Source of the DNA: Sedimenticola hydrogenitrophicus
GTDB taxonomy: Bacteria > Pseudomonadota > Gammaproteobacteria > Chromatiales > Chromatiaceae
DNA length: 64,000 nucleotides
Assembly (NCBI RefSeq): GCF_029017505.1
Contig: NZ_JAQGEI010000007.1
Coordinates: forward strand, 1 to 64,000
Direction: 5' to 3'
In this document: positions 8,192-31,802 of the stretch, in pieces
Layout: each line of letters opens with the position of its first letter
How positions within the stretch are numbered: position 1 is the stretch's first letter
Program-made: the position numbers and the translations under genes
Notes under the pieces: model-generated
Database searches by the model: none
Seen by the model: only the letters and a program-made list of their open reading frames with translations
Told to the model about the DNA's origin: nothing

Positions 8192-9733
8192 GTGAAATTT
8201 CAACTGGTCCGTTACTTTACAATCGCCAGTCTGGTGGTGTTTTTGATTGTGGCCTTCTCGCTCAATTTCGTGCAAAACAGGATTCAAACGGCTGCGCTGG
8301 TTGAGCAGGAGGAGAACCAGAACATCAACATGACCCGGGTGATATCCAACTCCATCTGGCCAGAGTTTGATTTCCTCATCAACAGATCCGGCACAGTCTC
8401 GACCGAGTCGTTAAAAAAACATCCGGAGATGCAACGCATCTTCGATCTCACCACGTCCCTCTTGAAAGGGTTGCCGGTGATCAAGGTGAAAGCCTTCAAC
8501 CTGGAGGGACGGACTGTATTCTCCACCCAGAACAGCCAGGTGGGGGAAGACAAGAGCCAGAACTCCGGGTTTATCTCTGCCAAAAAAGGCGTACCGGCCA
8601 GTGCGCTCTCCCACCGGGACACCTTCGACGCATTTGACGAGACCATCAGTGATCGTGACGTCGTCTCCAGTTACATACCGGTCTACAACCCGCAGACAGG
8701 AGCGCTGGAGGGGGTGTTCGAGATCTATTCCGATGTAACCCTCTTTCTTGGCAAGCTGCGCGAAACCCAATACATGGTGGTAGGCGGCATTGCCGGCCTT
8801 TTGGGACTGCTGTTTATCGCCTTGCTGGTTATCGTGAAACGGGCTGACCAGATCATTAAACAGCAGGATATAGAGAACCAGAAGTCACGTATGCAGATTG
8901 CCCAGTCGGAAAAGATGGCATCCCTGGGCCATATGGTGGCGTCGGTTGCCCATGAACTCAATACGCCGCTGGCCTTCACCCGCAGCAATATGGAACTTGC
9001 GGTAGAGGGCCTGGATAATCTGCGGCTGCCGAGCAGCTATGGCAGACAATTGATCAATTTTGCCAAATCGAGACGAAGCAAGAACTCAACCGGTATCAAC
9101 ATAAAATATACGAACAAGCTGCTCCGGGAAACCGACAGTTACGAAGAGTTGACGGAGATTGAAGATCTGATCGAAATGCTGTCACAAACACAAAGTGGCC
9201 TGGCACAGATGTCGGAACTGGTTTCTCACTTGAAGAAGTTTACCCGGATCGATCAGAACAGTGTGGCCGACTTCAATCTCAATAACTGTCTGGAAAATGT
9301 TCTCTATATTGCGCGTAGCACCATTCCGGAACATATAACCATCAATTGTGATTTTGGCGATTTACCCCTGATCGAGTGCATGCCGTCACAGTTAAACCAG
9401 GTATTCATCAATCTGATCAACAATGCCTCCCATGCCGTCGATTCCATCAACGGCACCATCTCGATACGCAGCTTCGTGGACGATGGCTATATCAAGGTGG
9501 AAGTCGAGGACAACGGCATCGGTATTCCGGAGAAAGACCTGGAGACCATATTCGAGGCTTACTACACCACAAAAGGTGTCGAGGAAGGCACCGGGCTCGG
9601 TCTATCGATATCAAAGGAGATCGTTGAACAACACAATGGTGTGATCAGTGTCAGGTCAAGCGTCGGTAAAGGCACCACATTTACGGTTCAATTGCCTATC
9701 CAGACGGTATCTGAGAACCGGAAAGCCGCCTGA
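8192..9733 (+). CDS. Membrane sensor histidine kinase
   Basis: A 513-residue inner-membrane kinase. Helix 1 lies at about residues 8-25 and helix 2 at 194-215, with a periplasmic sensor of about 165 residues between them that looks Cache-like (V-K-V-K-A-F-N-L-E-G-R-T-V-F-S-T). The H-box is S-V-A-H-E-L-N-T-P-L with the phospho-accepting His254. The ATPase part shows N-L-I-N-N-A-S-H-A-V, D-N-G-I-G-I-P and G-T-G-L-G-L-S-I. About 100 residues between H-box and N-box form a long helical insert. The start is GTG, with GAGG upstream. A receiver protein follows 30 bases later and is its likely partner. The ligand is unknown. Confidence 0.92.
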   Translation: MKFQLVRYFTIASLVVFLIVAFSLNFVQNRIQTAALVEQEENQNINMTRVISNSIWPEFDFLINRSGTVSTESLKKHPEMQRIFDLTTSLLKGLPVIKVKAFNLEGRTVFSTQNSQVGEDKSQNSGFISAKKGVPASALSHRDTFDAFDETISDRDVVSSYIPVYNPQTGALEGVFEIYSDVTLFLGKLRETQYMVVGGIAGLLGLLFIALLVIVKRADQIIKQQDIENQKSRMQIAQSEKMASLGHMVASVAHELNTPLAFTRSNMELAVEGLDNLRLPSSYGRQLINFAKSRRSKNSTGINIKYTNKLLRETDSYEELTEIEDLIEMLSQTQSGLAQMSELVSHLKKFTRIDQNSVADFNLNNCLENVLYIARSTIPEHITINCDFGDLPLIECMPSQLNQVFINLINNASHAVDSINGTISIRSFVDDGYIKVEVEDNGIGIPEKDLETIFEAYYTTKGVEEGTGLGLSISKEIVEQHNGVISVRSSVGKGTTFTVQLPIQTVSENRKAA

Positions 9734-9763
9734 TAACCCAACAATCAATAGAGTGATATCGAC

Positions 9764-10783
9764 ATGACGCAAGCCATTCAATCTGTCCTCTTCGTCGACG
9801 ATGAACCGCATATTCTGAACACCATGAGGTGGTTGTTCAAACGGCAATACAACGTATTGGTTGCCGACAGTGGTGCCAAGGCCATCGAGATACTGAAACA
9901 GCAGAAGGTTGACGTGATCGTCAGCGATCAGAAGATGCCGGGTATGACGGGTGTGGAAGTCCTGCACCAGGCAAAGGAGTTATGCCCGGCCAGTATGCGC
10001 ATTCTGTTGACCGGGTACTCCGATTTTGATGCCACGGTCGGCTCCGTGAACAAGGGAGAGATATTCCGCTTTGTACAGAAGCCTTGGGTAAACAAGGAGT
10101 TGAAGGATGTGGTCAATCTGGCGGCCGATACCGCCTCGCACACTGCCAGCGATATTATAAAAAGCTTTAAGACAATCCCCAGCGCCAACGCCGAGCGGAA
10201 TGACGCGACGACTGACATTAATGATCCGGCTGTCCTGGTGCTGGATGGTGACCGGGAGAGCAGTGTTCACATCCGCGATAGCCTGATCAATCGTAGCCAG
10301 GTGTTCTATACCCATGACATGGAAGAGGCCCTCAACCTGCTCGAAAAAAAGTCCATTGGCGTCATCGTCTCCGAGACCCGGATTGGCCGGAACGATGTCA
10401 CCTCGATGATCAAACTGCTCAAACACTACCACCCGGATATCGTCAGTATCGTTATGACCAACAGTAATGATGCCAATACAGTGATTGACCTGATCAATGA
10501 GGGACAAATCTTCCGTTTTCTGACCAAACCGGTGAAACAAGGCATGTGTCGACTCTGTATTGAGGCCGGCCTGCGCAAACATAAAGAACTGAAGGCAAAT
10601 CCCAACCTGGCGAAACGCCACATTGTCGACAAGCACACCCTGGCGGTAAGCATTACCGGCGAAACAGAAGGGGCATCTGATCGGGAACACTCAAACAACC
10701 AGGTCGCGGCATCGGCCAGCGGTGGATTTTTTGCATCGATGATCAATCGCATCAGGGGATTGCGCACCAGCCAGGTCAGCTAG
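9764..10783 (+). CDS. Double-receiver response regulator (REC-REC)
   Basis: A 339-residue protein with two receiver domains and no obvious output domain. The first (residues about 6-120) has the acidic pair V-D-D-E, phospho-acceptor D55 in V-I-V-S-D-Q-K-M-P-G, and the conserved Lys in V-Q-K-P-W. The second (about 155-270) has Glu204 in place of the acceptor Asp (V-I-V-S-E-T-R-I-G) and keeps K-P near residue 255, so it may mimic the phosphorylated state. The last 70 residues look disordered. It follows the histidine kinase by 30 bases and is surely its partner. An HD-domain protein is encoded convergently just downstream and could be the output. Confidence 0.9.
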   Translation: MTQAIQSVLFVDDEPHILNTMRWLFKRQYNVLVADSGAKAIEILKQQKVDVIVSDQKMPGMTGVEVLHQAKELCPASMRILLTGYSDFDATVGSVNKGEIFRFVQKPWVNKELKDVVNLAADTASHTASDIIKSFKTIPSANAERNDATTDINDPAVLVLDGDRESSVHIRDSLINRSQVFYTHDMEEALNLLEKKSIGVIVSETRIGRNDVTSMIKLLKHYHPDIVSIVMTNSNDANTVIDLINEGQIFRFLTKPVKQGMCRLCIEAGLRKHKELKANPNLAKRHIVDKHTLAVSITGETEGASDREHSNNQVAASASGGFFASMINRIRGLRTSQVS

Positions 10784-10840
10784 ATCCCGGCGTTGTCGGG
10801 GGAAATTCGGTCTGTTTCCGTCATCAGGAAAGTTGTCCGG

Positions 10841-12109
10841 TCAGAACAACCGCAGCGGGCTCTCCCCTGCCGCTCGATCCTCGCCCTGGGCGATCCGGAA
10901 ACAGTCATCGGCATGCCGCCCGGCAAGGGCCACCACCTCGGGGTCGAGTTTTCCGCTCCGCGCAAACTTTTCGAGAATGGCCAACACCTCGTCGATCTGC
11001 ATGCCGGCCCGGTAGGGCCGGTCCTGCACCAGGGCCTGGAAGACATCGGCCACCGCGATGATCCGCGCCTCCATGCAAAGATCCCGCTCCCGGGGATGAA
11101 AGGGGTAGCCGGCGCCATTCAGCCCCTCGTGATGGAACGCCGCCCAGTTGGCGATCTCGTCGAGCCCCTTGATGTGGCGCAGGATCTCGAAGGTCTCGTA
11201 GCTGTGCTGGTTCATGATGGACCGCTCCAGCTCGTTCAGCGGCCCCGCCTTCTCCAGGATACTGTCCGGCATGTGCAGCTTGCCCAGGTCGTGCAGCAGG
11301 CCGGCGATCTCGATCTTCTCGCACCGCTCGGCCGGCAGGCCACGGGTCGCCGCCAGATAGCGGGCCAGGGCGGCCACCCGGACCGAGTGCTGGGCGGTGA
11401 ACGGGCTCTTCTGATCGACAATATAGGCCAGGATCAGCGACAGCTGCTTGACCTGGGCGATGCTCAACGGTTGGCTGCTGCCGAACCGCCCCATGTCCCA
11501 CACGTAACGAGTCACATGCCGGTCCTCCAGGGCGATCCAGAACGCCTCCGACCGCTCGGCCTGTTGAAAAACCTCCACCAGTGACGGATCGAAATAGCGG
11601 TCGCCATAACCGGTGATGGATTTCACCACCTCCTCCCGGGCCAGCAGGATATCGGTTTCGTAATGGGCGACGGCCAGGACATCGATACGGTCGGAGAGGA
11701 AGATGAGGTTAGCCATCCGCTTGTCCCGGTCGCTGATATCCAGCCGCCGAAGCGCCTCCCAGGGTGTGTGGTGATAGAGGATGGGGGTGGCGAAGGCGGC
11801 CAGCGGCGCGAAGTCCTTCAACAGGCGGTAGCCGATCTCGCAATGGATGTGGGCATCGCTCCAGTCGAAGTGGTTGACCAGGCTGGTGTGCATCTGTTCG
11901 GTGGAGACGCCGCAGTCGTGCAACAGGCCCAGCTCGAAAGCGAACTGGATCTCCTGGTCGCTCCAGCCGAGCTGATGCGCCAGCTGACCGGCGATATAGC
12001 CCACCCGCTTGCCGTGGTTGGTATCGTTCATGCCCACTTGCGAGACCGCCGACTCGATGGCAAAAATCATCTGACGAAGGTCGATGGTCAGCGTAGCGTA
12101 TGAACTCAT
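10841..12109 (-). CDS. Dual-HD protein of the HD-GYP type (probable cyclic-di-GMP phosphodiesterase or relative)
   Basis: A 422-residue soluble protein with two HD-type halves. The N-terminal one has E-L-G-L-L-H-D-C-G-V near residue 65. The C-terminal one has A-G-L-L-H-D-L-G-K-L near residue 273 and then F-H-H-E-G-L-N-G-A-G-Y-P, close to the HHExxDGxGYP signature but with Asn for the Asp. HD-GYP enzymes hydrolyse cyclic di-GMP. The start at 12109 is chosen because AGGTG lies eight bases before it; an in-frame codon 24 bases further upstream lacks such a signal. It converges on the histidine kinase/REC-REC pair. Confidence 0.85.
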   Translation of the reverse strand: MSSYATLTIDLRQMIFAIESAVSQVGMNDTNHGKRVGYIAGQLAHQLGWSDQEIQFAFELGLLHDCGVSTEQMHTSLVNHFDWSDAHIHCEIGYRLLKDFAPLAAFATPILYHHTPWEALRRLDISDRDKRMANLIFLSDRIDVLAVAHYETDILLAREEVVKSITGYGDRYFDPSLVEVFQQAERSEAFWIALEDRHVTRYVWDMGRFGSSQPLSIAQVKQLSLILAYIVDQKSPFTAQHSVRVAALARYLAATRGLPAERCEKIEIAGLLHDLGKLHMPDSILEKAGPLNELERSIMNQHSYETFEILRHIKGLDEIANWAAFHHEGLNGAGYPFHPRERDLCMEARIIAVADVFQALVQDRPYRAGMQIDEVLAILEKFARSGKLDPEVVALAGRHADDCFRIAQGEDRAAGESPLRLF

Positions 12110-12421
12110 TACAGCACCTGAAGCAGCCCGCACAGTCAGGCTACAGTCTATCCTCCTTCGGGGATTTTGGCCGTGCTAACCGCCTAACAGTTGACCTGCC
12201 CCAAGAACCTTGTCGACAGCCGAGATTTTAGTTACGGCCGGGGAAAAAGAGTCTGCACCCGCCGCCGGCGCGGGCGTCGACAGCAGCCGGTGGGCGAAGC
12301 CTGTTCCGGAGTACCGCGGGCAGTCCGATTGTCGAGGCAGGGCTCCACTGTCAGGCTGGTTGTTATCCCGTACACGCCGCGTGGGCACAAAAAACGTGCC
12401 CACCCTACCGGAATTAACGAA
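12110..12421. repeat. 312-base gap with a GTGGGCAC...GTGCCCACCCTAC palindrome
   Basis: The gap between the HD-GYP-type gene and the AEC transporter gene holds a palindrome at about 12381-12408, with arms GTGGGCAC and GTGCCCAC and the end ACCCTAC. The same end occurs at 4397-4409 and 27812-27824. The remainder is GC-rich and open in several frames by chance; I see no other gene. Confidence 0.6.
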
Positions 12422-13613: not shown

Positions 13614-14519
13614 CTAAACCGTCATCCCCAGCAGCGACTGGATGGCGATGGAGGTGGCGGCGGCGCGATTGTCCACCTGGATCTTGCTGTAGATCTGCTC
13701 CAGGTGCTTGTTGACGGTGCGCGGACTCAACGTCAGGATCTCGCCGATCTCACGGTTGGTCTTGCCCTGTGCCACCCACAGCAGCACCTCTGCCTCGCGC
13801 TTGGTCACCGGCAGGGCCGCCTCCAGCGCCTTGGGGTCGAGCAACTGGTGCTGATCGACGATGCGCAGCAGGTGCTCGTCGGCATGTACCGTCTTGAAAT
13901 AGCGGATGATCAGGGGTTGCCGGGCGGTGTGAATAATCAGATCCTGGGCCGTTTCCCGGCCACCGATCCACTCCCTGATCTGGCCGCTGAGGACAAACCC
14001 GCCGACCGCCACCTCGATGCCGTTACCAGCCAGCAGCGCCCGCGTCTCCGGGGTGGTCCACAGCACCTCTCCCCTCTTGTTTACCGAGAGGAGGTGTTGG
14101 CGCGCGGAGTCCAGCGCCTCGCGGGCATCGCTGATCAGGTGGGCGCTACGCACATGGGCGGTGATGCGCGCGAGCAGCTCGTCGGGGTTGATCGGTTTGG
14201 TGATGTAATCGGTGCCGCCATGCTCGAACGCCTTGACGATGTGCTCGGGATCGCTCAGGCCGGTCATGAACAGGATCGGCGTCAGCGGCAGCGAGCGGCG
14301 CATCTGGCGGCAACTTTCAAAGCCGTCCATCACCGGCATCAGCGCATCCATCAGCACCACGTCGGGCTGGATCCGGGCGACGATGTCCAGCGCCTGCTGA
14401 CCATTGAGGGCCACCAGCACGGTGTAGCCACCCAGCTGAAGCGCGCTATGGATCATGCCCAAGGAGTCGGGCGAGTCGTCGACCACCAGTACGATGGGAT
14501 TGTTTCGGTCAAGCGGCAT
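13614..14519 (-). CDS. LuxR-type response regulator, probable partner of the NCS1-kinase fusion
   Basis: A 301-residue regulator. The receiver domain spans about residues 1-125 with V-V-D-D and phospho-acceptor D58 in V-V-L-M-D-A-L-M-P; the conserved K-P is in Y-I-T-K-P-I-N-P. A linker of about 100 residues looks PAS-like. The C-terminus is a LuxR helix-turn-helix with T-K-R-E-A-E-V-L-L-W-V-A-Q-G-K-T-N-R-E-I and R-T-V-N-K-H-L-E-Q-I. The start at 14519 follows GGGAG and lies inside the last codons of the upstream kinase fusion, so the two are translationally coupled. This pairing and the nearby divergent urtA promoter suggest control of urea uptake and urease genes. Confidence 0.9.
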   Translation of the reverse strand: MPLDRNNPIVLVVDDSPDSLGMIHSALQLGGYTVLVALNGQQALDIVARIQPDVVLMDALMPVMDGFESCRQMRRSLPLTPILFMTGLSDPEHIVKAFEHGGTDYITKPINPDELLARITAHVRSAHLISDAREALDSARQHLLSVNKRGEVLWTTPETRALLAGNGIEVAVGGFVLSGQIREWIGGRETAQDLIIHTARQPLIIRYFKTVHADEHLLRIVDQHQLLDPKALEAALPVTKREAEVLLWVAQGKTNREIGEILTLSPRTVNKHLEQIYSKIQVDNRAAATSIAIQSLLGMTV

Positions 14520-17500
14520 GATGGAACTCCCGAACGGTGCGGACGAGGCCCTCGAGATCACAGGCCTCGGCATGGGTCTTGAGATAGCCCAGCAGCGCGG
14601 AGCCGGCGTAGCGCGTCTCCAGCGCCTCCAGCTTCTCCAGCACGCCGTTGAGGTATCCGATCTTGGCCAGGGAGATCAGTTCGTCGAGTTCGGCTTGTTC
14701 CGGTGCGGGCTTTGGCACAGGTGCAGGCTCGCCCCTCCCCGGGTGCGGTGGTGATAGCGTTGTTTCCACGATCGTCGGTGTATCGAACACCCAGGTCAGA
14801 TCCAGGGCATTGCCGATCTTCTCCAACAAGTTTTCCAGATTGATCGGTTTGATCAGATACTCGTTGTGCAGACGGCTGGTGAGCTCCTCGCGCTGGTTTT
14901 CGATGGCATTGCCGGAGAGCATGAAGATGGGCGCCTCCACCCCCTGACCACGCAGCCGCTGCGCCAGCTCCCAGCCATCCATCAGCGGCATGCGCACATC
15001 CAGCAGATAGAGATCGATCGGCTCGCGCCCGGCGATCGCCAGCCCCTGCCTTGCGGATTCGGCATCGTGCAGGCGGAATCCCAGGGGGCTCAGGAAATCG
15101 CGGATCAGCGCCCGGTGCCAGGGTTCGTCATCCACCACCAGCAGGACCTTTCGTGGCCCGGCGTAGCCGAGAATACGCTGTCGGGTTACCGGCGGGCGGC
15201 TGGGCTTGTAGACGAACGGCAGCATGATGGAGAGGGTGAAGTCGCTACCCACGCCATATCGGCTGCTGAGGGCCAGATCGCCCCCCATCAGGGTGCAGAG
15301 CAGCCGGGAGATGGTGAGGCCCAGGCCGGTGCCGGTGACCAAGCGTGTCTCCTCGTTCTGGATGCGCTCGAACGGGGCGTAGATGCGCTCCCGGTCATCT
15401 TCCCTGATGCCGATACCGGTATCGCTGACGGTGAATTTGGCGACCTCGTTGCGATAGCTGATCTGGAAGCGCACCCGGCCGGCGTGGGTGAACTTGACGG
15501 CATTGGAGAGCAGGTTGGTGAGGATCTGCCGCAGGCGCTTCTCGTCGGTCAGGACGTGGTTGGGCAGTTCGCTGTCACAGCGGTATTCGAAGCGCAGATG
15601 CTTGGCCTGGGCCTGCACCGCGAACGTTTCGGCCAGCTGCTCGACCAGCGTGTGCAGATTGACCTCGTCGCGGTGGATGTCGACGCGCCGTGCCTCGATT
15701 TTCGAAATCTCCAGCAACCCCTCGATGACATCGGAGAGGTGTTCGCCATTGCGATGGATCACCTCGGCCGCCTTGCGATTGCGCGCCGCCAGCTGTACGT
15801 CCGCCTTCAGCAGCTGCGCGTAACCGAGCACAGTATTGAGCGGCGTACGCAGTTCGTGACTCACCCCGGACAGGTAGCGGCTCTTGGCCTGGTTGGCGGT
15901 GACCGCCACCTCCTTGGCATCCTGCAGTTGCCGTGCCGTCAGTTCATGGGCCGCCACCTCGCGGCGCAGCAGCGCGGTATGGTGCAGCGAATCCTCCAGC
16001 GCCTTGCGCTTGCTGTCCTGCGCCAGCACGTAGAGCCACACCAGCACCCCGTTGACGATAAACAGCAACAGGAAGGTCTTGCCCAGCGCCGAGCCGGCGA
16101 TCGCGGCCTGCGGCACCGACGCGTAGTCGCCGGAGTGATAGACGATGAAGAACAACCCGGCGATCACCAGGGAGGTCACCACCAGGATGACCAGGAAGTG
16201 AATCACCGTGGCGTGCAGCCGCAATCCCCAGGCCTGGGGAAACAGGCGGCCGAAGGTCTGGCTGAATTGTGCCTGCAGATGGGCCTGCGGCCGGCAGCGG
16301 TCGCGACAACTGGCATCCAGGGCACAGCAGAGCGAACAGACATCGCCACCGTACACCGGACAGGCGAGCATGTCCGGGTGCTCAAACCGGTTGGCGCAGA
16401 TCGCGCAATCCTCCGCATGCTCCTGGCACTCATGGACCGGCGACTCATACTCCCGGGCCAGGTAGTAGCGTCCCCCGGTCAGCCAGGCGATGAGCGGGGC
16501 GGTGATAAACGGGATGAACAGGGAAATGAACGGCGCCAGCGCCTTGAAGGTCGGCCCCAGCAGACCCAGTTGTCCGACCATGCCGAGCAGCGAGGCAATC
16601 GCCATGGAACCCACACCCACCGGATTGATGTCGTAAAGCCGGCCACGCTTGAATTCCATCTGCCGGGGGCGCAGGCCCAACGGCCGGTTGATCACCAGAT
16701 CGGCCACCAGCGAGCCCATCCAGGCCAGCACCAGGGTGGAGTAGGTGATCAGGATACTCTCGAACGCCTGATACAGCCCCAGTTCCATCAGCAGCAGGGC
16801 GATGGCGACGTTGAAGAAGAGCCAGACGATGCGCCCCGGGTGATGGTGGGTGAGGCGGGAAAAGAAGTTGGACCAGGCGAGCGAACCCGCGTAGGCGTTG
16901 GTGACGTTGATCTTGAGCTGGGAGATGATGACGAAGGTGGCCGCCAGCACCAGCGCCACCTCCGGATGGCTGGTGATGTAGCTGAAGGCGACCAGGTACA
17001 TGTGGGAGGGGTCGTCGGCCAGTTCCGCCGCCACGCCGTGCTTGAGCGCCAGCACCGCCAGAAAGGAGCCGGCCAGCAGTTTGAGCACCCCGAACAGGGT
17101 CCAGCCCGGTCCGGACAGGGTGAGCGCCAGCCACCATTTTCCCGAGCCCTCCTGCGCCTTGGGCAGGAAGCGCAGGAAATCCACCTGTTCCCCGTTCTGG
17201 GCGATCAGCGGAAAGATCACCGCGGCCGCAGCGCCGAACAGCAACAGGTCGAAACCGCCCTCGCTGGCCGCCTCCAGACCGGTGAACCGGGTCCATTCCG
17301 AGACCGCCTCCGCGTGATGGTAGAGGATGAACAGCAGCGGCGCGAGCTGCAGCACGATCCACAGCGGCTGGGTCCACAACTGAAAGCGGCTGATACGGGT
17401 GATGCCGTGGGTCGCCAACGGAATCACCATCAGCGCGCTGACCACATAACCCCACGCCAGGGGAATCCCCAGCAGCAGTTGCAGGGCCATGGACATGATC

Positions 17501-17943
17501 GCCGCTTCCAGGGCAAAGAAAATAAAGGTGAACGAGGCGTAGATCAGCGAGGAGATGGTGGAGCCGATGTAACCGAAACCGGCACCCCGGGTCAGCAGGT
17601 CGATATCCAGGCCCGAGCGGGCGGCGTGGTAGCAGATGGGCAGGCCGAACAGGAAGATCAGGGTACAGACCACCAGGATCGCCCACAGGGAGTTGCTGAA
17701 TCCGTACTGCAGGGTGATGGCGCCGCCGATCGCCTCCAGGGCGAGGAAGGAGACGATACCCAGAGCGGTGTTGGCGACCCGCGCATCGGACCACTTGCGC
17801 GCCCGGGTCGCGGTAAAACGCAGGGCAAAATCCTCCAGCGTCTCGTTCGCCACCCACTGGTTATAGCGGCGTTTGGTCGGGTTGATCACTGGGGGAGACG
17901 CCATCTTGTGCATCATCTCGTCGCTTATCGTTTCGCCATGCAC
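14509..17943 (-). CDS. NCS1-type permease / histidine kinase / receiver fusion sensor
   Basis: A 1144-residue hybrid. Residues about 30-490 hold roughly 12 membrane helices and resemble nucleobase:cation symporter-1 (purine/cytosine/allantoin) permeases, with N-T-A-L-G-I near residue 58 and K-I-N-V-T-N-A-Y-A-G-S near 344. Residues 506-550 carry nine cysteines. Two more helices lie at about 576-602 and 621-641. The kinase has H-box G-V-S-H-E-L-R-T-P-L (His696) and ATPase motifs L-L-S-N-A-V-K-F, D-T-G-I-G-I and G-T-G-L-G-L. The receiver has D982 in Y-L-L-D-V-R-M-P. A helical C-terminal tail follows. Transporter-kinase fusions such as CbrA use a transporter-like part for sensing. Its position, divergent to urtA, suggests sensing of urea or a related compound; that is inference. 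Confidence 0.9.
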   Translation of the reverse strand: MHGETISDEMMHKMASPPVINPTKRRYNQWVANETLEDFALRFTATRARKWSDARVANTALGIVSFLALEAIGGAITLQYGFSNSLWAILVVCTLIFLFGLPICYHAARSGLDIDLLTRGAGFGYIGSTISSLIYASFTFIFFALEAAIMSMALQLLLGIPLAWGYVVSALMVIPLATHGITRISRFQLWTQPLWIVLQLAPLLFILYHHAEAVSEWTRFTGLEAASEGGFDLLLFGAAAAVIFPLIAQNGEQVDFLRFLPKAQEGSGKWWLALTLSGPGWTLFGVLKLLAGSFLAVLALKHGVAAELADDPSHMYLVAFSYITSHPEVALVLAATFVIISQLKINVTNAYAGSLAWSNFFSRLTHHHPGRIVWLFFNVAIALLLMELGLYQAFESILITYSTLVLAWMGSLVADLVINRPLGLRPRQMEFKRGRLYDINPVGVGSMAIASLLGMVGQLGLLGPTFKALAPFISLFIPFITAPLIAWLTGGRYYLAREYESPVHECQEHAEDCAICANRFEHPDMLACPVYGGDVCSLCCALDASCRDRCRPQAHLQAQFSQTFGRLFPQAWGLRLHATVIHFLVILVVTSLVIAGLFFIVYHSGDYASVPQAAIAGSALGKTFLLLFIVNGVLVWLYVLAQDSKRKALEDSLHHTALLRREVAAHELTARQLQDAKEVAVTANQAKSRYLSGVSHELRTPLNTVLGYAQLLKADVQLAARNRKAAEVIHRNGEHLSDVIEGLLEISKIEARRVDIHRDEVNLHTLVEQLAETFAVQAQAKHLRFEYRCDSELPNHVLTDEKRLRQILTNLLSNAVKFTHAGRVRFQISYRNEVAKFTVSDTGIGIREDDRERIYAPFERIQNEETRLVTGTGLGLTISRLLCTLMGGDLALSSRYGVGSDFTLSIMLPFVYKPSRPPVTRQRILGYAGPRKVLLVVDDEPWHRALIRDFLSPLGFRLHDAESARQGLAIAGREPIDLYLLDVRMPLMDGWELAQRLRGQGVEAPIFMLSGNAIENQREELTSRLHNEYLIKPINLENLLEKIGNALDLTWVFDTPTIVETTLSPPHPGRGEPAPVPKPAPEQAELDELISLAKIGYLNGVLEKLEALETRYAGSALLGYLKTHAEACDLEGLVRTVREFHHAA

Positions 17944-17986: not shown

Positions 17987-18006
17987 CATACGTCATTTGA
18001 CGTATG
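17987..18006. promoter_or_regulatory. Perfect palindrome in the kinase-fusion/urtA divergent promoter region
   Basis: CATACGTCA, two bases (TT), then TGACGTATG form a perfect palindrome with 9-bp arms, about 145 bases before the urtA start and about 45 bases before the start of the NCS1-kinase fusion. LuxR/NarL-type regulators often bind TACGTA-like dyads of this size, so it is a good candidate operator for the LuxR-type regulator encoded at 13614-14519. There is no T run after it, which argues against a terminator. Confidence 0.6.
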
Positions 18007-18151
18007 CCGCTGAGTGTAACGCCGCATGGCGATTCAATCGGCCCGGGGAGAGACTGGAACCGTAAAAAAACAGGCGCCGGTTACCGGGAGAGCAATTCCA
18101 GTGCCAAATCATAAGCAACCCAACATTTTCCAAGATTGTGGAGAGTCCGAG

Positions 18152-19441
18152 ATGAAAACGAGTTACCTGAAAAGCAGCCTGGTATCCATGGCCATCGCGC
18201 TCGCGGGGATGAGCGGCGCGCAAGCCGCGGAGACCATCAAGGTGGGAATCCTGCATTCCCTATCCGGCACCATGGCGATCAGTGAAACCACACTGAAGGA
18301 CACCATGCTGATGCTGATCGACGAACAGAACAAGAAAGGCGGCCTGCTCGGCATGCAGCTGGAACCGGTAGTGGTCGATCCCGCCTCCAACTGGCCGCTG
18401 TTTGCCGAGAAGGCGCGCGAGCTGCTGAGCCAGGAGAAGGTGGCCGCCATCTTCGGCAACTGGACCTCGGTGTCGCGCAAATCGGTGCTGCCGGTGGTGG
18501 AGGAGCTGAACGGCCTGCTGTTCTATCCGGTGCAGTACGAGGGCGAGGAGTCGTCGAAGAACGTCTTCTACACCGGGGCGGCCCCCAATCAGCAGGCGAT
18601 CCCGGCGGTCGATTACCTGATGAACGACATCGGCGTGAAACGCTGGGTGCTGGCCGGTACCGACTATGTCTACCCGCGCACCACCAACAAGATCCTCGAG
18701 GCCTACCTGAAGGCCAAGGGTGTAGCCGACAAGGACATCATGATCAACTACACCCCGTTCGGTCACTCCGACTGGCAGTCGATTGTCTCCGAGATCAAGA
18801 AGTTCGGCTCCACCGGGGTGAAGACCGCCGTGGTCTCCACCATCAATGGCGACGCCAATGTCCCGTTCTATAAAGAGCTGGGCAACCAGGGCCTCTCGGC
18901 CGAGGATATTCCCGTGGTGGCCTTCTCGGTGGGTGAGGAGGAGCTCTCCGGTATCGACACCAAACCGCTGGTGGGTCACCTGGCGGCCTGGAACTACTTC
19001 ATGAGCGTGGACGCCGAGGCCAACAGCGGCTTTATCGACGCCTGGAAGAGCTTCATCAAGAACGACAAGCGGGTCACCAACGATCCGATGGAGGCCCACT
19101 ACATCGGCTTCAACATGTGGGTGAAGGCGGTTGAGAAGGCCGGCACCACCGACTCCGATGCGGTACAGCAGGCGATCATCGGCGTCTCGGTGCCCAACCT
19201 GACCGGCGGTTACTCCGCCATGCTGCCCAATCACCATGTCACCAAGCCGGTGCTGATCGGCGAGATCCAGGAGAACGGCCAGTTCGAGGTGGTGTGGCAG
19301 ACCTCCGGTCTGGTGGCCGGGGATGCCTGGTCCGACTTCCTGCCGGGTTCCAAGGACATCATCGCCGATTGGCGTGCACCGCTGGCCTGCGGCAACTACA
19401 ACGTCAAGACCGCGAAATGTTCCGGCCAGAACTACGAGTAA
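18152..19441 (+). CDS. urtA: Urea ABC transporter, substrate-binding protein UrtA
   Basis: A 429-residue periplasmic binding protein of the branched-chain amino acid/amide type that captures urea. Residues 1-25 are a signal peptide ending S-G-A-Q-A-A. The mature start E-T-I-K-V-G-I-L-H-S-L-S-G-T-M-A and the later F-G-N-W-T-S-V-S-R-K-S-V-L and L-F-Y-P-V-Q-Y-E-G-E-E-S-S are typical of UrtA. The start at 18152 follows GGAGAG and gives the signal peptide; the frame is open further upstream without a good start. It heads urtABCDE-ure on the plus strand and is divergent from the NCS1-kinase fusion. Confidence 0.96.
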   Translation: MKTSYLKSSLVSMAIALAGMSGAQAAETIKVGILHSLSGTMAISETTLKDTMLMLIDEQNKKGGLLGMQLEPVVVDPASNWPLFAEKARELLSQEKVAAIFGNWTSVSRKSVLPVVEELNGLLFYPVQYEGEESSKNVFYTGAAPNQQAIPAVDYLMNDIGVKRWVLAGTDYVYPRTTNKILEAYLKAKGVADKDIMINYTPFGHSDWQSIVSEIKKFGSTGVKTAVVSTINGDANVPFYKELGNQGLSAEDIPVVAFSVGEEELSGIDTKPLVGHLAAWNYFMSVDAEANSGFIDAWKSFIKNDKRVTNDPMEAHYIGFNMWVKAVEKAGTTDSDAVQQAIIGVSVPNLTGGYSAMLPNHHVTKPVLIGEIQENGQFEVVWQTSGLVAGDAWSDFLPGSKDIIADWRAPLACGNYNVKTAKCSGQNYE

Positions 19442-19638: not shown

Positions 19639-19700
19639 AAAAGTACGGTCCCTCATGCAACACCTTACTGGTATCTAGCTAAAAAACATTGGTGGCCTTT

Positions 19701-21350
19701 ATGAAACCCTATAACCCAGAGCAAATAAGTAGGCACATGTCACGGCTTTTAAACTGGATACTGCTGCTTGCCTGCCTCACTGCGGGTCAGCTCCCTGCGC
19801 TATACGCCGCCGAAAGCGACACGCCGCTGCATGCGGCGGCCGAATTGTTCAAGTCAAAAAAGTTCGACCAAAAATACCAGGCCATTCAACTGCTGGCGTC
19901 CGACGGCAGCGAACAGGCGAGAGCGATCCTTGTCGCCCTGATGGATAGCCGGCTCTACACGCTGAAGCGTGACCAGCGGCTGATCATGCTTGGGCGCCGC
20001 AGCGGAAGCCCCGACGCGGTCGATGCGATCACCGGCGAGTCCGTGGGCAATGTCGCCCGGGGCGCGATGAACAAAATCACCCTGAACAACCGCATGCGCA
20101 GCCAGATACGCAATGCCCTGGCGATGCTGGATCTGCGCAACCCGGACAAGACAAAACGCCTCGCCGCCGTCAACCAACTGCTGGACCGTCCCGACGCCGC
20201 GAGCGCCGCGTTGATTCAGTCCTTACTGGAACAGGAGAGCGACGGACAGATCCGTGAAGCGATGGAGATCGTCATCGCCCTGGGGAAACTGAGCTCGGGT
20301 GACAAAACCGAACGCCTCGCCGCCGTCGAACTGCTGGACGGCAATATCCATCCGGCGGTGCGCAACGGCCTGCTGAAACTGCAGCAGAGTACCAGCGACG
20401 AGGCATTCGCCGCCGAGATCAAACAGGTATTGGACAATATAAAGGCCACACTGCAGCTCTACAGCCTGGTCGAGAACATCTTCTTCGGCCTCAGCCTCGG
20501 CTCGGTGCTGGTGCTGGCCGCCATCGGCCTGGCCATCACCTTCGGCGTCATGGGGGTGATCAACATGGCCCACGGCGAACTGATCATGCTCGGCGCCTAC
20601 GCCACCTATGTCATGCAGCTGCTAATGCCGGAGCATATCGGCGCCGCGCTGCTGCTCTCCATACCGGTCGCCTTTGTGATATCCGGGCTGGTCGGCATCG
20701 GCATCGAACGGGGCGTGATCCGCTTTCTCTACGGCCGCTCCCTGGAGACCCTGCTGGCCACCTTCGGCATCAGCCTGATCCTGCAGCAGACGGTGCGTTC
20801 CATCTTCTCCCCGCTCAACCGCTCGGTGGAGGCGCCGAGCTGGATGAGCGGCAGCTGGGAGATCAACAGCGCCCTCTCCCTTACCCTGAACCGGCTCTAT
20901 ATCATCGCCTTCTGCCTGCTGGTGTTCGCCGCGCTGTTCCTGGTACTGAAAAAGACCTCGCTGGGTCTGCAGGTGCGGGCGGTGTCGCAGAACCGGGCCA
21001 TGGCCCGCGCCATGGGGGTGCGCTCGGAATGGGTGGATGCCATGACCTTCGGTCTCGGCTCCGGCATCGCCGGGGTGGCCGGGGTCGCCCTCAGCCAACT
21101 GACCAACGTGGGCCCCAACCTGGGCCAGTCCTACATCATCGACAGCTTCATGGTGGTGGTGTTCGGCGGCGTCGGCAACCTCTGGGGCACCCTGGTGAGC
21201 GGCATGGGGCTGGGCATCGCCAACAAGTTTCTCGAACCCTGGTCCGGCGCCGTGCTGGCAAAGATCCTGGTGTTGGTGTTCATCATCCTGTTTATCCAGA
21301 AACGGCCGCGCGGACTGTTCCCGCAGAAAGGCCGGGCGGCGGAGGGCTGA
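19701..21350 (+). CDS. urtB: Urea ABC transporter, permease UrtB with N-terminal periplasmic domain
   Basis: About 549 residues. An N-terminal signal-like helix (L-L-N-W-I-L-L-L-A-C-L-T) is followed by about 210 soluble residues rich in helix repeats (A-I-Q-L-L-A-S-D-G-S-E-Q-A-R-A-I-L), which is a normal part of UrtB but absent from LivH-type permeases. From about residue 250 there are eight hydrophobic helices with the LivH-like I-T-F-G-V-M-G-V-I-N-M-A-H-G-E and a transmembrane G-V-G-N-L-W-G-T. With UrtC it forms the urea channel. The start could be TTG 19689, ATG 19701 or ATG 19737; none has a strong ribosome binding site. UrtC begins four bases after its stop. Confidence 0.94.
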   Translation: MKPYNPEQISRHMSRLLNWILLLACLTAGQLPALYAAESDTPLHAAAELFKSKKFDQKYQAIQLLASDGSEQARAILVALMDSRLYTLKRDQRLIMLGRRSGSPDAVDAITGESVGNVARGAMNKITLNNRMRSQIRNALAMLDLRNPDKTKRLAAVNQLLDRPDAASAALIQSLLEQESDGQIREAMEIVIALGKLSSGDKTERLAAVELLDGNIHPAVRNGLLKLQQSTSDEAFAAEIKQVLDNIKATLQLYSLVENIFFGLSLGSVLVLAAIGLAITFGVMGVINMAHGELIMLGAYATYVMQLLMPEHIGAALLLSIPVAFVISGLVGIGIERGVIRFLYGRSLETLLATFGISLILQQTVRSIFSPLNRSVEAPSWMSGSWEINSALSLTLNRLYIIAFCLLVFAALFLVLKKTSLGLQVRAVSQNRAMARAMGVRSEWVDAMTFGLGSGIAGVAGVALSQLTNVGPNLGQSYIIDSFMVVVFGGVGNLWGTLVSGMGLGIANKFLEPWSGAVLAKILVLVFIILFIQKRPRGLFPQKGRAAEG

Positions 21351-21353
21351 GAG

Positions 21354-22454
21354 ATGGGTCTGCTGAATCTGCTGAAACAGGATCGCGGCGGCCAGCTGTT
21401 CCTGGGCCTGCTGGCGCTGGCCGCCGTGCTGGTGCCGCTGCTCAATCTGTTGCCACCCGAGGGCCATGCGCTGCACCTCTCCACCTACACCGTCACCCTG
21501 CTGGGCAAGTATCTCGCCTTCGCCCTGCTGGCGATCGCCGTGGACCTCGCCTGGGGCTACCTGGGCATACTCAGTCTCGGCCACGGCGCCTTCTTCGCCC
21601 TCGGCGGCTACGCCATGGGCATGTACCTGATGCGCCAGATCGGCGACCGCGGCGTCTATGGCGACCCGCTGCTGCCGGACTTCATGGTGTTCCTCAACTG
21701 GGACGCCCTGCCCTGGTTCTGGTACGGCTTCGACATGTTCTGGTTCGCCGCCCTGATGGTGATGCTGGCGCCCGGCCTGCTGGCGTTCCTGTTCGGCTGG
21801 CTGGCCTTTCGCTCGCGGGTGACCGGGGTCTATCTCTCCATCATGACCCAGGCCCTGACCTATGCCCTGATGCTCGCCTTCTTCCGCAACGAGATGGGTT
21901 TTGGCGGCAACAACGGGCTGACCGATTTCAAGGAGCTGCTCGGCTTCGATCTGCAGGCGGACAGCACCCGCATCGGGCTGTTCGTGGTGACCGCGCTGAT
22001 GCTGGCCCTGGGCTATATCGTCTGCCGGGCCATTGTCCAGTCCCGCCTGGGACGGGTGGCGGTGGCGATACGCGACGCGGAAGACCGCGCCCGCTTCGTC
22101 GGCTACCGGGTGGAGCATGTGAAGCTGGCCATCTTCACCTTCTCCGCGGTACTCGCCGGCATCGCAGGGGCCCTCTACGTGCCCCAGGTGGGCATTATCA
22201 ACCCGGGGGAGTTCTCCCCGCTCAACTCCATCGAGATCGTCATCTGGGTGGCCGTGGGTGGACGCGGCACCCTGTACGGCGCCGCCGCCGGCGCCCTGAT
22301 GGTCAACTATGGCAAGACCTACCTGACCGGGGCCCTGCCGGAGGTGTGGCTGTTTGCCCTCGGCGCGCTGTTCGTGCTGGTCACCATCCTGCTGCCCCGG
22401 GGGCTGATCGGCCTGATGAAAACCCGAAGCAAAAAAGGAGGCGCAGCAGCATGA
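21354..22454 (+). CDS. urtC: Urea ABC transporter, permease UrtC
   Basis: A 366-residue LivM-type inner-membrane permease partnering UrtB. I see roughly nine to ten hydrophobic helices, and the family signatures A-W-G-Y-L-G-I-L-S-L-G-H-G-A-F-F-A-L-G-G-Y-A and W-V-A-V-G-G-R-G-T-L-Y-G-A. GGAGGG precedes the start. The stop overlaps the urtD start in an ATGA junction, so the two are translationally coupled. The last residues are basic (K-T-R-S-K-K-G-G), as is usual on the cytoplasmic side. Confidence 0.95.
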   Translation: MGLLNLLKQDRGGQLFLGLLALAAVLVPLLNLLPPEGHALHLSTYTVTLLGKYLAFALLAIAVDLAWGYLGILSLGHGAFFALGGYAMGMYLMRQIGDRGVYGDPLLPDFMVFLNWDALPWFWYGFDMFWFAALMVMLAPGLLAFLFGWLAFRSRVTGVYLSIMTQALTYALMLAFFRNEMGFGGNNGLTDFKELLGFDLQADSTRIGLFVVTALMLALGYIVCRAIVQSRLGRVAVAIRDAEDRARFVGYRVEHVKLAIFTFSAVLAGIAGALYVPQVGIINPGEFSPLNSIEIVIWVAVGGRGTLYGAAAGALMVNYGKTYLTGALPEVWLFALGALFVLVTILLPRGLIGLMKTRSKKGGAAA

Positions 22455-23281
22455 ATTCACTGGACAACCTGCGAACGGTGATGCGGCGTGACCGGGTATT
22501 CGATTTCATGCTGCAGACCACCGGCCTGGAGGTGGATCTGAGCCACGGCACCATCCTCTACCTGGAGGATATCTCGGTCAGCTTCGACGGCTTCAGGGCG
22601 ATCAACGACCTGAACCTCTATATCGACGCCGGCGAGCTGCGCTGCATTATCGGTCCCAACGGCGCCGGCAAGACCACCATGATGGACATCATCACCGGCA
22701 AGACCCGACCGGACAAGGGCAGCGCCCACTTCGGACAGAACATCAACCTGCTGCAGCTCAGCGAACCGGAGATCGCCCAGGCGGGAATCGGCCGCAAGTT
22801 CCAGAAACCGACGGTATTCGAGTACCACACGGTATTCGAAAACCTGGAGCTCTCCATGGCCGGGGAGCGGCGCATCTGGCCCACCCTCACCGCGCAACTG
22901 GACGGGGTGCAACGGCAGCGCATCGACGAAGTGCTGGAGATCATCGCCCTGCAGGCACACCGCGACCGCAATGCCGGCGCCCTCTCCCACGGCCAGAAGC
23001 AGTGGCTGGAGATCGGCATGCTGCTGATGCAGAACCCGAAGCTGCTGCTGGTGGACGAGCCGGTGGCCGGCATGACCCATCAGGAGATGGAGCGCACCGC
23101 CGAACTGCTCACCGCGCTGGCCGGCGACCACACGGTGGTGGTGGTGGAGCATGACATGGATTTCATCCGCTCCATCGCGCGCAAGGTGACGGTACTGCAT
23201 CAGGGCAGCGTGCTGGCCGAGGGGAGCATGGACGAGATTCAGAATGACCCCCGGGTGGTGGAAGTCTACCTGGGTGAATAG
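22451..23281 (+). CDS. urtD: Urea ABC transporter, ATPase UrtD
   Basis: A 276-residue LivG-type ATPase that powers urea import. Walker A is G-P-N-G-A-G-K-T-T-M, the signature is L-S-H-G-Q-K-Q-W-L-E, and Walker B is L-L-L-V-D-E-P-V-A-G-M. The N-terminal 35 residues before the ATPase fold (V-M-R-R-D-R-V-F-D-F) are an extension also found in other UrtD proteins. The start overlaps the urtC stop and has the strong site AAAGGAGG upstream. Directly after its stop codon lies a 204-base palindromic element that separates it from urtE. Confidence 0.95.
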   Translation: MNSLDNLRTVMRRDRVFDFMLQTTGLEVDLSHGTILYLEDISVSFDGFRAINDLNLYIDAGELRCIIGPNGAGKTTMMDIITGKTRPDKGSAHFGQNINLLQLSEPEIAQAGIGRKFQKPTVFEYHTVFENLELSMAGERRIWPTLTAQLDGVQRQRIDEVLEIIALQAHRDRNAGALSHGQKQWLEIGMLLMQNPKLLLVDEPVAGMTHQEMERTAELLTALAGDHTVVVVEHDMDFIRSIARKVTVLHQGSVLAEGSMDEIQNDPRVVEVYLGE

Positions 23282-23484
23282 TAACTCACGGAGTGATTGG
23301 CCTGGCTTGTTGGCCGATCTTGATGGCGCCTCGAATCCGGCCCCGTTTTCAGATTCAAGCCTGCCCTTGTTTGAGCGAAGCGAGTTTGGGCAGGCGCTGA
23401 AAATGGGGCCGGATTCGAGGATACAAGCCATCGTGCGAGGCTGGCAAGCCAGGCCAATCACTTACAGACTGGGTGAGTAGTTGC
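23281..23484. repeat. Three-layer palindromic element, full copy 1 (urtD-urtE gap)
   Basis: A 204-base element, palindromic at three nested levels. The outer arms are GTGATTGGCCTGGCTTG and their complement ending GTGAGTAGTTGC. The middle arms are CCTCGAATCCGGCCCC and GGGGCCGGATTCGAGG. The inner arms are GCCTGCCC and GGGCAGGC around TTTGAGCGAAGCGAGTTT. A second full copy lies at 44402-44608 and a short copy without the two inner layers at 25070-25176. It touches the urtD stop codon, so the operon message must carry this structure. It encodes no protein that I can see. Confidence 0.9.
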
Positions 23485-23507
23485 GGCGAATAATTGGGAC
23501 AAATCAG

Positions 23508-24203
23508 ATGCTGAAGGTCGAACAAATCAATCAGTTCTACGGCGAGAGCCATACCCTTTGGGATCTGGATCTCCATGCCCCCGAAGGCCAGTGCACCTGC
23601 CTGATGGGGCGCAACGGCGTCGGCAAGACCACCCTGCTGCAGTGCGTGATGGGACTGCTGCCTTTCCGCTCGGGCGAGATCCGCTTCGCCGGCGACTCGC
23701 TCAACCGCCAGATCGCCGAGCGGCGCGCCCCGCTCGGCATCGGTTACGTGCCCCAGGGGCGACAGATCTTCCCGCTGCTCACGGTGGAGGAGAACCTGCG
23801 CATCGGCCTGCCGGCGCGCCGCGAAAAAGGCAACAGGATCCCGCCGTTCATCTTTGAACTGTTCCCGGTGCTGAAGGAGATGCTGGGGCGGCGCGGCGGC
23901 GACCTCTCCGGCGGCCAGCAACAGCAGCTGGCCATCGGCCGGGCCCTGGTGATCGATCCCAAGCTGCTGATCCTGGATGAGCCGACCGAGGGGATTCAGC
24001 CCAATATCGTGCAGGAGATCGGCGACATAATCCTGCGCCTGAACCGGGAGATCGGACTCACGGTGCTGCTGGTGGAGCAGAAGCTGCCGTTTGCCCGCAA
24101 GGTGGCGGACCGCTACTGCATCCTGGATCGCGGCCGCCACGTGGCGGCCGGCGAAATGGCCGGACTCAACGACGAACTGATTCGTCAATACCTGACGGTG
24201 TGA
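23508..24203 (+). CDS. urtE: Urea ABC transporter, ATPase UrtE
   Basis: A 231-residue LivF-type ATPase, the second motor of the urea importer. Walker A is G-R-N-G-V-G-K-T-T-L, the signature is L-S-G-G-Q-Q-Q-Q-L-A, and Walker B is L-L-I-L-D-E-P-T-E-G-I. The opening M-L-K-V-E-Q-I-N-Q-F-Y-G is the usual UrtE start; only a weak GGGAC precedes it, possibly because the palindromic element ends just 23 bases upstream. The stop codon overlaps the possible GTG start of ureD. Confidence 0.95.
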   Translation: MLKVEQINQFYGESHTLWDLDLHAPEGQCTCLMGRNGVGKTTLLQCVMGLLPFRSGEIRFAGDSLNRQIAERRAPLGIGYVPQGRQIFPLLTVEENLRIGLPARREKGNRIPPFIFELFPVLKEMLGRRGGDLSGGQQQQLAIGRALVIDPKLLILDEPTEGIQPNIVQEIGDIILRLNREIGLTVLLVEQKLPFARKVADRYCILDRGRHVAAGEMAGLNDELIRQYLTV

Positions 24204-24205
24204 AG

Positions 24206-25063
24206 ATGGCGGAACCGGCGATCCGTTCAGATGCGATGGAGAGCACCGGCTGGCAGGCCGCCCTGCGCCTCGGCTTCAGGCAGATCGCGGGAAAGACCCT
24301 GCTGGCCGAGCGCAGTCGCCAGGGTCCGCTGGCGGTGCAGCGTGCGCTCTACCCGGAGGGCGATCTCTGCCATGTCTACCTGCTGCACCCGCCCGGTGGT
24401 GTGGCCGGCGGTGACCAGCTGCGGATCAGCACCGAAGTGGCCCCCGGCGCCACGGCGCTGGTGACCACCCCCGGCGCCACCAAGTTCTACCGCAGCGCCG
24501 GTCCCTGGGCCACGCAGCGGCAGACACTCCGTGTTACGGATGGCTGCCTGGAGTGGCTGCCACAGGAGAACATTATTTTTCCGGGGGCCCGGATCGAGCT
24601 GGCGACCACCGTGCAGCTTGAGGGCAATGCCCGCTTTATCGGCTGGGAGATTCACTGTCTTGGCCGCCCAGTGATTGACGAGGTCTTCGACCACGGCGCG
24701 GCGCTGTTTCGTTTCAGCCTGTTCAGGGACGGTCTGCCGCTGCTGCATGAGCGGCTGGAGGTAAACGGACAGGCCGATCTTGGCGCCAGTGCCGGACTGC
24801 GTCACCATCCGGTGCTCGGTACCCTCATTGCCACCACCGGGGCCACCGCCGGAGATAACGGCCTGCTGGACACGATCCGCGCGCAGCTCCCGGAATCGCA
24901 ACGGAACAGGCTGGGCATTACCGAGGTGGACGGCCTGTTCATCGCCCGCTACCTGGGGGACTCCACCGAGACCGCCCGCGCCCTGTTCAGCGACATCTGG
25001 AAAGCCCTGCGACCCGCCGTGGTCGATCGTCCACCCTGCGTGCCGCGCATATGGAATACCTGA
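24206..25063 (+). CDS. ureD: Urease accessory protein UreD
   Basis: A 285-residue chaperone that binds apo-urease and, with UreF and UreG, guides nickel insertion. Typical UreD segments are L-H-P-P-G-G-V-A-G-G-D, T-T-P-G-A-T-K-F-Y-R-S, W-L-P-Q-E-N-I-I-F and R-Y-L-G-D-S. The start is either ATG 24206 or GTG 24200, the latter overlapping the urtE stop; neither has a clear ribosome binding site, so coupling to urtE is likely. A 107-base palindromic element follows its stop. Confidence 0.93.
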   Translation: MAEPAIRSDAMESTGWQAALRLGFRQIAGKTLLAERSRQGPLAVQRALYPEGDLCHVYLLHPPGGVAGGDQLRISTEVAPGATALVTTPGATKFYRSAGPWATQRQTLRVTDGCLEWLPQENIIFPGARIELATTVQLEGNARFIGWEIHCLGRPVIDEVFDHGAALFRFSLFRDGLPLLHERLEVNGQADLGASAGLRHHPVLGTLIATTGATAGDNGLLDTIRAQLPESQRNRLGITEVDGLFIARYLGDSTETARALFSDIWKALRPAVVDRPPCVPRIWNT

Positions 25064-25069
25064 TATTTA

Positions 25070-25176
25070 GTAACTACTCACCCGGCCTGCAAGCGATTGG
25101 CCTGGCTTGTTGGCCTATCTCGATCCAGCCATCGTGTGAGGCCGGCAAGGCTGGCCAATCACCCGTGAGTAGTTAC
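25070..25176. repeat. Three-layer palindromic element, short copy (ureD-ureAB gap)
   Basis: A 107-base copy holding only the outer arms: it starts GTAACTACTCACCC and ends with the near-complement GTGAGTAGTTAC, with GATTGGCCTGGCTTG and GGCTGGCCAATC inside. Compared with the copies at 23281 and 44402 it lacks precisely the stretch of about 100 bases from GGCGCCTCGAATCC to GGATTCGAGGATAC. It lies between ureD and the fused urease gene. Confidence 0.88.
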
Positions 25177-25210
25177 GATATTTGAACCTGATATTTTTAA
25201 GGAGTCATTC

Positions 25211-25849: not shown

Positions 25850-25877
25850 TCAATGGCGATTGATCCATCACAGGAAT

Positions 25878-25951
25878 GTAGGGTGGATAAGCTTGCGCAT
25901 CCACCATCAACTGATTCAGCGTGGATGCGCCTACCGGCTTATCCACCCTAC
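25878..25951. repeat. GTAGGGTGGATAAGC...GCTTATCCACCCTAC palindrome (ureAB-ureC gap)
   Basis: A 74-base palindrome with near-perfect outer arms GTAGGGTGGATAAGC and GCTTATCCACCCTAC and inner arms GCGCATCCAC and GTGGATGCGC. A half copy lies at 41091-41123. It lies in the 175-base gap between the fused small-subunit gene and ureC. Confidence 0.85.
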
Positions 25952-26024
25952 GACACCACCGCTTTCGCGAGCATTTCCTCGATCAGGCGACGTCGTCCTG
26001 ATTAAATGATCGGAGCATTAAACA

Positions 26025-27740
<1,716 letters not shown>

Positions 27741-27743
27741 ATC

Positions 27744-27947: not shown

Positions 27948-27974
27948 GCCGCACCAGGATTCAGGGAACGTATG

Positions 27975-29121: not shown

Positions 29122-29135
29122 AGGGAACAGAAACC

Positions 29136-31653: not shown

Positions 31654-31802
31654 CAAATGTTCCTCATGTCTCTTGGATCATCGGCGCCAGCCCTGGCAGG
31701 CAATCGGTGAAGAGGTACAGCTATCAGCGTTGCGTATCTCCATGTAACGGCTGATCAACATTTCTCTTAAGTGATGCGCGCGGCATATACCCTTGGCGGC
31801 GC

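Follow-up and report, generated by a model that had tools for sequence, protein, structure and literature searches.

Organization of the locus

The gene under study lies on the minus strand at positions 14509-17943 of the window, i.e., the whole 64,000-nucleotide stretch of Sedimenticola hydrogenitrophicus DNA that was analysed. Its open reading frame (ORF) is intact, begins with GTG and encodes a permease-kinase-receiver protein of 1144 amino acids (aa). From the N-terminus, and all on the minus strand, the protein consists of an NCS1-like permease domain (residues 24-499, positions 16447-17874), a segment with eight cysteines (C513-C550, 16294-16407), further helices that in the AlphaFold model would join permease to kinase (about residues 572-685, 15889-16230; Pfam matches in this region are weak membrane families only), HisKA plus HATPase_c (residues 686-906, 15226-15888) and a receiver domain (residues 935-1043, 14815-15141). 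Pfam assigns HisKA to residues 686-751, HATPase_c to 799-906 and Response_reg to 935-1043, and the phosphoacceptor H696 and the receiver D982 are both present. The first-pass annotation of this DNA had described a permease, a complete histidine kinase and a receiver in one protein, which the ORF, the Pfam domains and these two residues confirm; its domain list left out the eight-cysteine segment, the extra helices and the gene of a LuxR-type regulator next to the kinase gene. This response regulator (13614-14573, minus strand) carries a receiver (D76) and a LuxR-type HTH according to Pfam. In its longest form the ORF shares 65 nt with the kinase gene; counted from a later ATG at 14519, the shared stretch is 11 nt. 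The features of a hybrid kinase are all present (HisKA, HATPase, receiver and an adjoining regulator gene), and the two proteins presumably form a pair.

The kinase gene is divergent to urtA (18026-19441, plus strand), as had also been noted earlier; the assignment is confirmed by a TIGR03407 match of 570 bits against a cut-off of 493 bits. Judged by eye, the true urtA start is likely at 18152, ahead of a signal peptide. The genes urtB, urtC, urtD and urtE follow (19689-24203, plus strand), so that UrtA-E, all above their NCBIfam cut-offs, adjoin the urease genes ureD, ureAB (fused), ureC, ureE, ureF and ureG (24200-29777, plus strand). Among the latter, ureC was identified by NCBIfam and the rest by position and the same order in relatives (ureD had no NCBIfam match). 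Urease gamma and beta look fused in a 212-aa ORF (25211-25849, plus strand), whereas at many other loci the two subunits matched separately. Beside ureG ends the gene of a methyl-accepting chemotaxis protein (29767-31656, minus strand; Pfam MCPsignal), through which urea might be connected to taxis. Positions 8192-12133, close to the kinase locus, encode another histidine kinase, a protein with two receivers and one with an HD domain.

Relationship of the permease half to NCS1 carriers

Residues 1-499 gave only a chance-level Pfam match at E<=10, and a PF02133 profile search of the whole own genome returned zero matches, the window protein included, so the label "NCS1-type" cannot be derived from Pfam. 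Nothing relevant emerged from the PDB either, when its sequences were searched with the window domain or with a 22-row alignment (fusions plus two stand-alone permease relatives). Profile and structure comparisons were more informative. When a 57-row alignment (the window plus 56 of the 80 loci most similar to it; L083, with a stop, and L090 were dropped) was compared with 14 canonical NCS1 proteins by hhalign, the probability was 98.5% (E 2e-15, 391 columns), and a profile of the same 14 proteins matched the window domain with a score of 66 bits (E 5.6e-21, for 50 sequences searched). An AlphaFold model of residues 24-685 (pLDDT 85.9, pTM 0.86) was searched with Foldseek: the top five PDB matches were to CodB and Mhp1, with TM-scores of 0.66-0.78 by target length, and NCS1 proteins ranked above SLC5 ones. 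One stand-alone relative, L021, passes PF02133 (31.9 bits, cut-off 23.5 bits). On the strength of these profiles and of the predicted model, the first half is read as an NCS1-fold domain from a remote branch that Pfam largely misses. The earlier "NCS1-type" label is thus upheld as to kinship, with the qualification that the relationship is remote and that Pfam misses the window protein.

Residue roles in NCS1 proteins (TM3, TM6 and the TM8 Na2 site) were taken from the relevant passages of PMC9379551, where two aromatic residues that sandwich the base are said to be conserved. Where most NCS1 carriers have the TM6 aromatic, both hhalign and MAFFT place residue L246 of the window protein; the canonical rows L231 and L232 (two of the eight shown) also lack it. 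The TM3 Trp, present in all eight canonical rows shown, aligns with Phe/Leu (profile/MAFFT) or with Thr (hhalign). We had considered a loss of both nucleobase-stacking aromatics and rejected it: the loss holds for TM6 alone, where two canonical rows are also without the residue. The Thr-Thr pair of the Na2 site in TM8 aligns with K344-I345, N346 being kept, and some canonical rows also lack the threonines. Since the pair aligns with Lys-Ile, sodium coupling of the permease half appears doubtful. We read E146 as the position of Mhp1 Gln121. Taken together, the aligned pocket residues may give a weak hint against a heterocycle ligand.

E146, K344 and N346 are invariant in the 22-row alignment, and E146 also in the 57-row alignment. 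The invariance of the three residues, shared with the two stand-alone relatives, would suit a protein whose permease half combines signalling with the transport of urea or amides, as has been proposed for CbrA and histidine; in the relevant parts of PMC7096432 and PMC13022988, CbrA is described as both transporting and signalling. The Lys-Ile at the Na2 position speaks against such a dual function, with which it is nevertheless compatible, and we regard transport by the kinase as unlikely, if the most serious of the alternatives considered here.

The eight cysteines are invariant across the 57-row alignment. They could be taken to mean that the protein senses metal or nitrogen status through this segment and that the gene linkage described below reflects the need for a metalloenzyme. 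The segment is, however, also found in stand-alone permease relatives (all eight cysteines in L027, about half in L021), and such sensing leaves the division of the permease tree between amide and urea types unexplained. Of all the explanations considered, we give this one the least credence.

Distribution of the kinase family

In a set of relatives the kinase was found in 6 of 55 genomes, the own genome included. At E<=0.001 it was detected in 20 of 369 genomes of a class sample (G061 and G153 weakly, G071 as a short piece) and in 59 of 398 genomes of a phylum sample. The phylum sample contained 57 rows of at least 500 bits, namely the window and 56 loci in 51 other genomes (L159-L213 and L127; from 58 rows, the distant NCS1 protein L214 and L215, which belongs to the class draw, were left out); the samples share ancestry, and locus counts from them are non-independent events. 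A contig search gave at least 597 pattern matches, of which at least 578 were confirmed, and the best 80 were taken on. On plasmids, relatives of the kinase reach E<=1e-60 in 537 of the 72,556 records (340 of the 537 bear a Klebsiella name), and the annotation under the match is "ATP-binding protein" in 26 of the 30 plasmid matches listed. The K. quasipneumoniae plasmid pHNLW22-1 (L253) and the Chelatococcus plasmid pCO-6 (L254) carry a kinase relative, annotated in both records as "ATP-binding protein", beside urtA-E and a formamidase gene.

Neighbouring urea and amide genes

Loci were labelled by the nearest match among urtA, fmdD, fmdA, amiE, ureC and ureAB at >=55% identity within fetched stretches of 20 kb. 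In the phylum sample, 37 of the 56 loci were of the amide type, 17 of the urea type and two had no label, so that urea or amide genes are close by at 54 of 56; the two exceptions (L173 and L207) are cut by a contig end and have almost no upstream sequence. None of 20 canonical NCS1 loci examined as a control was near such genes. The best 80 of the at least 578 confirmed loci, ranked by similarity to the window, comprised 62 amide, 10 urea and 8 unlabelled loci; among the last, L029, L083, L088, L100 and L105 are short or start at a contig end, and L089, L098 and L099 have full flanks in which no urea or amide genes were matched. At L099, whose 10-kb flanks gave no such match, a TrkH-like gene (by eye) separates the kinase gene from a LuxR-type regulator gene. 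In the class sample outside the own genus (16 genomes, G140 being shared with the phylum draw) the proportion was lower, with a label in 9 of 16 genomes (5 amide, 4 urea, 7 none). Two unlabelled class loci (L113 and L114) have little upstream sequence, and a third (L124) has a UrtA-like operon at about 49%, below the 55% threshold; no urea or amide genes were matched at L116 (5 kb upstream), L121, L123 and L126, nor at a second locus (L215) of genome G170.

The commonest partners, found at the 37 amide-type loci, are formamidase (FmdA), aliphatic amidase and a UrtA-like ABC transporter of the amide type. NCBIfam confirmed one representative each of FmdA (749 bits, cut-off 500 bits), an FmdB-type zinc ribbon and aliphatic amidase. 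FmdA exceeds its cut-off in 39 of 398 genomes, 38 of which have the kinase (the exception is G046), a co-occurrence with a Fisher p of 3e-40 that ignores kinship between genomes; 14 kinase genomes of the phylum sample, the own genome included, are without FmdA. UrtA exceeds its cut-off in 135 of 398 genomes; most of these are without the kinase, and urea use therefore does not need it. The UrtA model does not separate the amide from the urea type, as the amide-type relative L077 passes it too. The regulator gene accompanies the kinase at 52 of the 56 phylum-sample loci by blastp and at 50 by a stricter tblastn; by blastp it was not found at L182, L183, L211 and L212, and the kinases at L211 and L212 lack the receiver.

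The linkage of the kinase to urea and amide genes is real and broader than urea. An association with urea genes in other genomes, the absence of which would have refuted the first-pass annotation, was found at 17 of the 56 loci, and its description of a "urea operon" is valid there and in the window; amide genes are the commoner neighbours, and urea is one of two uses of the receptor family. Not supported is the earlier proposal of a sensor for a heterocycle (purine, pyrimidine, allantoin or hydantoin) that is broken down to urea. The NCS1 fold is in its favour. Against it, amide genes predominate among the neighbours, the 20 ordinary NCS1 loci had neither urea nor amide genes close by, inspection of 15 cluster representatives by eye revealed no allantoin or pyrimidine genes, and the TM6 aromatic is not kept (a point weakened by the two canonical rows that lack it as well). 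We consider sensing of such a heterocycle very improbable. The likeliest ligand would be urea or a short amide; there is no sign of allantoin, uracil or hydantoin in that role.

A urtA or fmdD gene is present at 47 of the 56 phylum-sample loci, mostly divergent from the kinase gene. This separate ABC uptake system counts against transport by the permease half of the kinase, though the two are compatible. The same arrangement could suggest that the signal enters the kinase through the solute-binding protein UrtA/FmdD and not through the permease pocket. Kinases beside urease genes without urtA or fmdD found nearby (e.g. L127, L191 and L205) argue against this route, which we hold to be improbable. 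Binding of urea or an amide by the permease half of the kinase itself is the reading that we prefer.

The intergenic region between the kinase gene and urtA

A 7-2-7 palindrome, TACGTCA-AA-TGACGTA (read on the minus strand), lies at 17989-18004, 45 nt from the kinase GTG and 147 nt from the likely urtA start, and is the proposed site of the regulator. At two mismatches or fewer, the 5.13-Mb genome holds no second site; since the pattern read backwards, as a control, had 2 matches, the occurrence of a single site is in itself no proof that it exceeds chance. Conservation between the divergent genes is the stronger argument. Among 73 intergenic regions in which both gene starts could be placed, the palindrome occurs with up to two mismatches in 25 of 53 amide-type regions and in 14 of 20 of the urea type; the window and its own genus account for 5 of these 14, and the urea-type count without them is 9 of 15. 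When each region was shuffled once, none of 73 came within two mismatches and the best was never under four. Of 155 genes, 69 are preceded by a looser 7-2-7 form (urea 11 of 35, amide 55 of 106, unlabelled 3 of 14; shuffles 0 of 155), many of these genes being Bradyrhizobium near-copies. The palindrome is absent or divergent at many loci, e.g. L175 and L176.

A pattern match at 18092-18106 (minus strand), aimed at the kinase gene, is presumably a sigma-54-type site, a name that we give it from the -24/-12 consensus. It is weak on its own, as at least one exact match arose in 19 of 100 shuffles of the window. Such sites point toward the kinase gene in 18 of the 73 regions and away from it in 3 (about 0.9 and 0.5 expected, from shuffles that kept single-base content only); the 18 include 5 regions from the window and its genus and 6 Bradyrhizobium rows of identical sequence. 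The sites are suggestive of a kinase made mainly when nitrogen is short.

Variants and the permease tree

Five genomes have two strong copies of the kinase. In four of them (G540, G627, G759 and G606) one copy is at amide and one at urea genes, and in G477 both are at amide genes. Stand-alone permease relatives occur in similar surroundings: at L122 the kinase gene is divergent from such a relative (48%), behind which lie fmdA and amiE and no gene matching urt, and at L128 a stand-alone relative adjoins urease genes. In a further form the permease is joined to PAS-GGDEF-EAL, according to Pfam, at L019 (the same locus as L126); in genome G170 (L026/L215) the permease module likewise has PAS-GGDEF-EAL in place of the kinase, the Pfam domains having been read on L019 only. 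No urea or amide genes were found near these two loci.

A tree of the permease half was built from 157 rows reduced to 109 at 88% identity (L083, L207 and L214 were dropped). Operon type follows this tree, since 5 changes suffice among the 96 labelled rows, unlabelled rows not being counted. The root is the midpoint, which does not fix the direction of the amide/urea switches. By eye, the urea rows form four clades: a gammaproteobacterial one with the window; L103/L196/L206; L104/L197/L208/L210; and L087/L127/L191/L194 with their kin. The stand-alone L128 is a further urea row outside them. Alignment columns such as 459, 335, 409-412 and 245 differ between urea- and amide-linked rows and were considered as specificity residues; the independent-pair test comprised four pairs, and no specificity residue is claimed.

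Comparison with known systems

Fusions of a transporter fold to a kinase are already known, namely CbrA, CrbS, RpuS and Ks-Amt5 (relevant parts of PMC13022988, PMC9100948 and PMC5764959). The SLC5/STAC kinases (CbrA, CrbS, RpuS) resemble the window protein in having a transporter-fold sensor fused to the kinase, and the two members of this group in S. fredii are described in PMC9100948 as hybrids with a receiver, which have LuxR-type regulators. They differ in that the sensor half of the window protein is NCS1-like and not SLC5 (there is no SSF match in Pfam), that a cysteine segment stands where those kinases have STAC (residues 501-681 gave no STAC match in Pfam, which may contain no STAC model), and that the window family is found at amide and urea genes in place of a link to acetate, pyruvate or histidine. 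In the ammonium sensor kinase Ks-Amt5, as described in PMC5764959, an uptake carrier has likewise been reused as a kinase-fused sensor, with a different fold (Amt), ligand (ammonium), organism and architecture. CodB and Mhp1 share the fold and weak sequence homology with the permease half; unlike them, the window protein is fused to a kinase, keeps neither the TM6 aromatic nor the Na2 threonines and lies below PF02133 detection. Bacterial NCS1 proteins characterised earlier carry N-heterocycles, as stated in a paper on a metformin carrier (PMC13390362).

The amide-type Urt operon is also in print: a formamidase/amidase operon with a UrtABCDE-like transporter has been described in Bradyrhizobium (PMC3098086) and P. 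veronii (PMC13209695), and, from those accounts, is the same kind of operon as the amide-type neighbours of the kinase. In their main texts, PMC3098086 has no instance of the word "kinase" and PMC13209695 none of "histidine kinase". A table in PMC2907700 places a 1131-aa histidine kinase and a 308-aa receiver protein of Dechloromonas aromatica next to UrtA, with urease genes further on; the kinase is printed there as a generic histidine kinase, and from this entry we infer that it belongs to the window family. "NCS1" has zero occurrences in the main texts of PMC13022988, PMC9100948 and PMC5764959, and the formamide review PMC10781810 contains neither "two-component" nor "sensor". No description of the NCS1-like permease-kinase family was found in open-licence PMC papers, in agreement with the earlier suggestion that an NCS1 kinase with a urea regulon may be little described.

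Proposed function

We consider it likely that the protein is a receptor kinase derived from an NCS1-fold permease, with urea as its signal here and a short-chain amide in most relatives, and that it activates the neighbouring operon via the regulator. The ligand would bind in the former transport pocket of the permease half, and the resulting change would reach the kinase by way of the cysteine segment and the helices behind it. Phosphate would then pass to the LuxR-type regulator, either via the internal receiver or directly, and the regulator may bind the palindrome at 17989-18004 and turn on urtABCDE and the urease genes, activation being assumed rather than repression. The kinase itself may be made mainly under nitrogen shortage, from the sigma-54-type site. 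On balance we also lean towards a wider reading: a branch of the NCS1 fold may have specialised on urea and short amides, its stand-alone carriers, hybrid kinases and PAS-GGDEF-EAL form sharing one receptor module, and the kinases may have moved more than once from one operon type to the other, amide or urea, with little change in the operator palindrome.

A permease-derived sensor thus probably switches the neighbouring urea or amide genes on. If so, the family would supply many Pseudomonadota with a regulator of their amide and urea operons, and would add a further carrier fold, beside SLC5 and Amt, to those turned into kinase sensors. The paralogue pairs linked to amide and urea genes would be natural material for mapping ligand specificity, and an annotation as "urea ABC transporter" can conceal an amide system.
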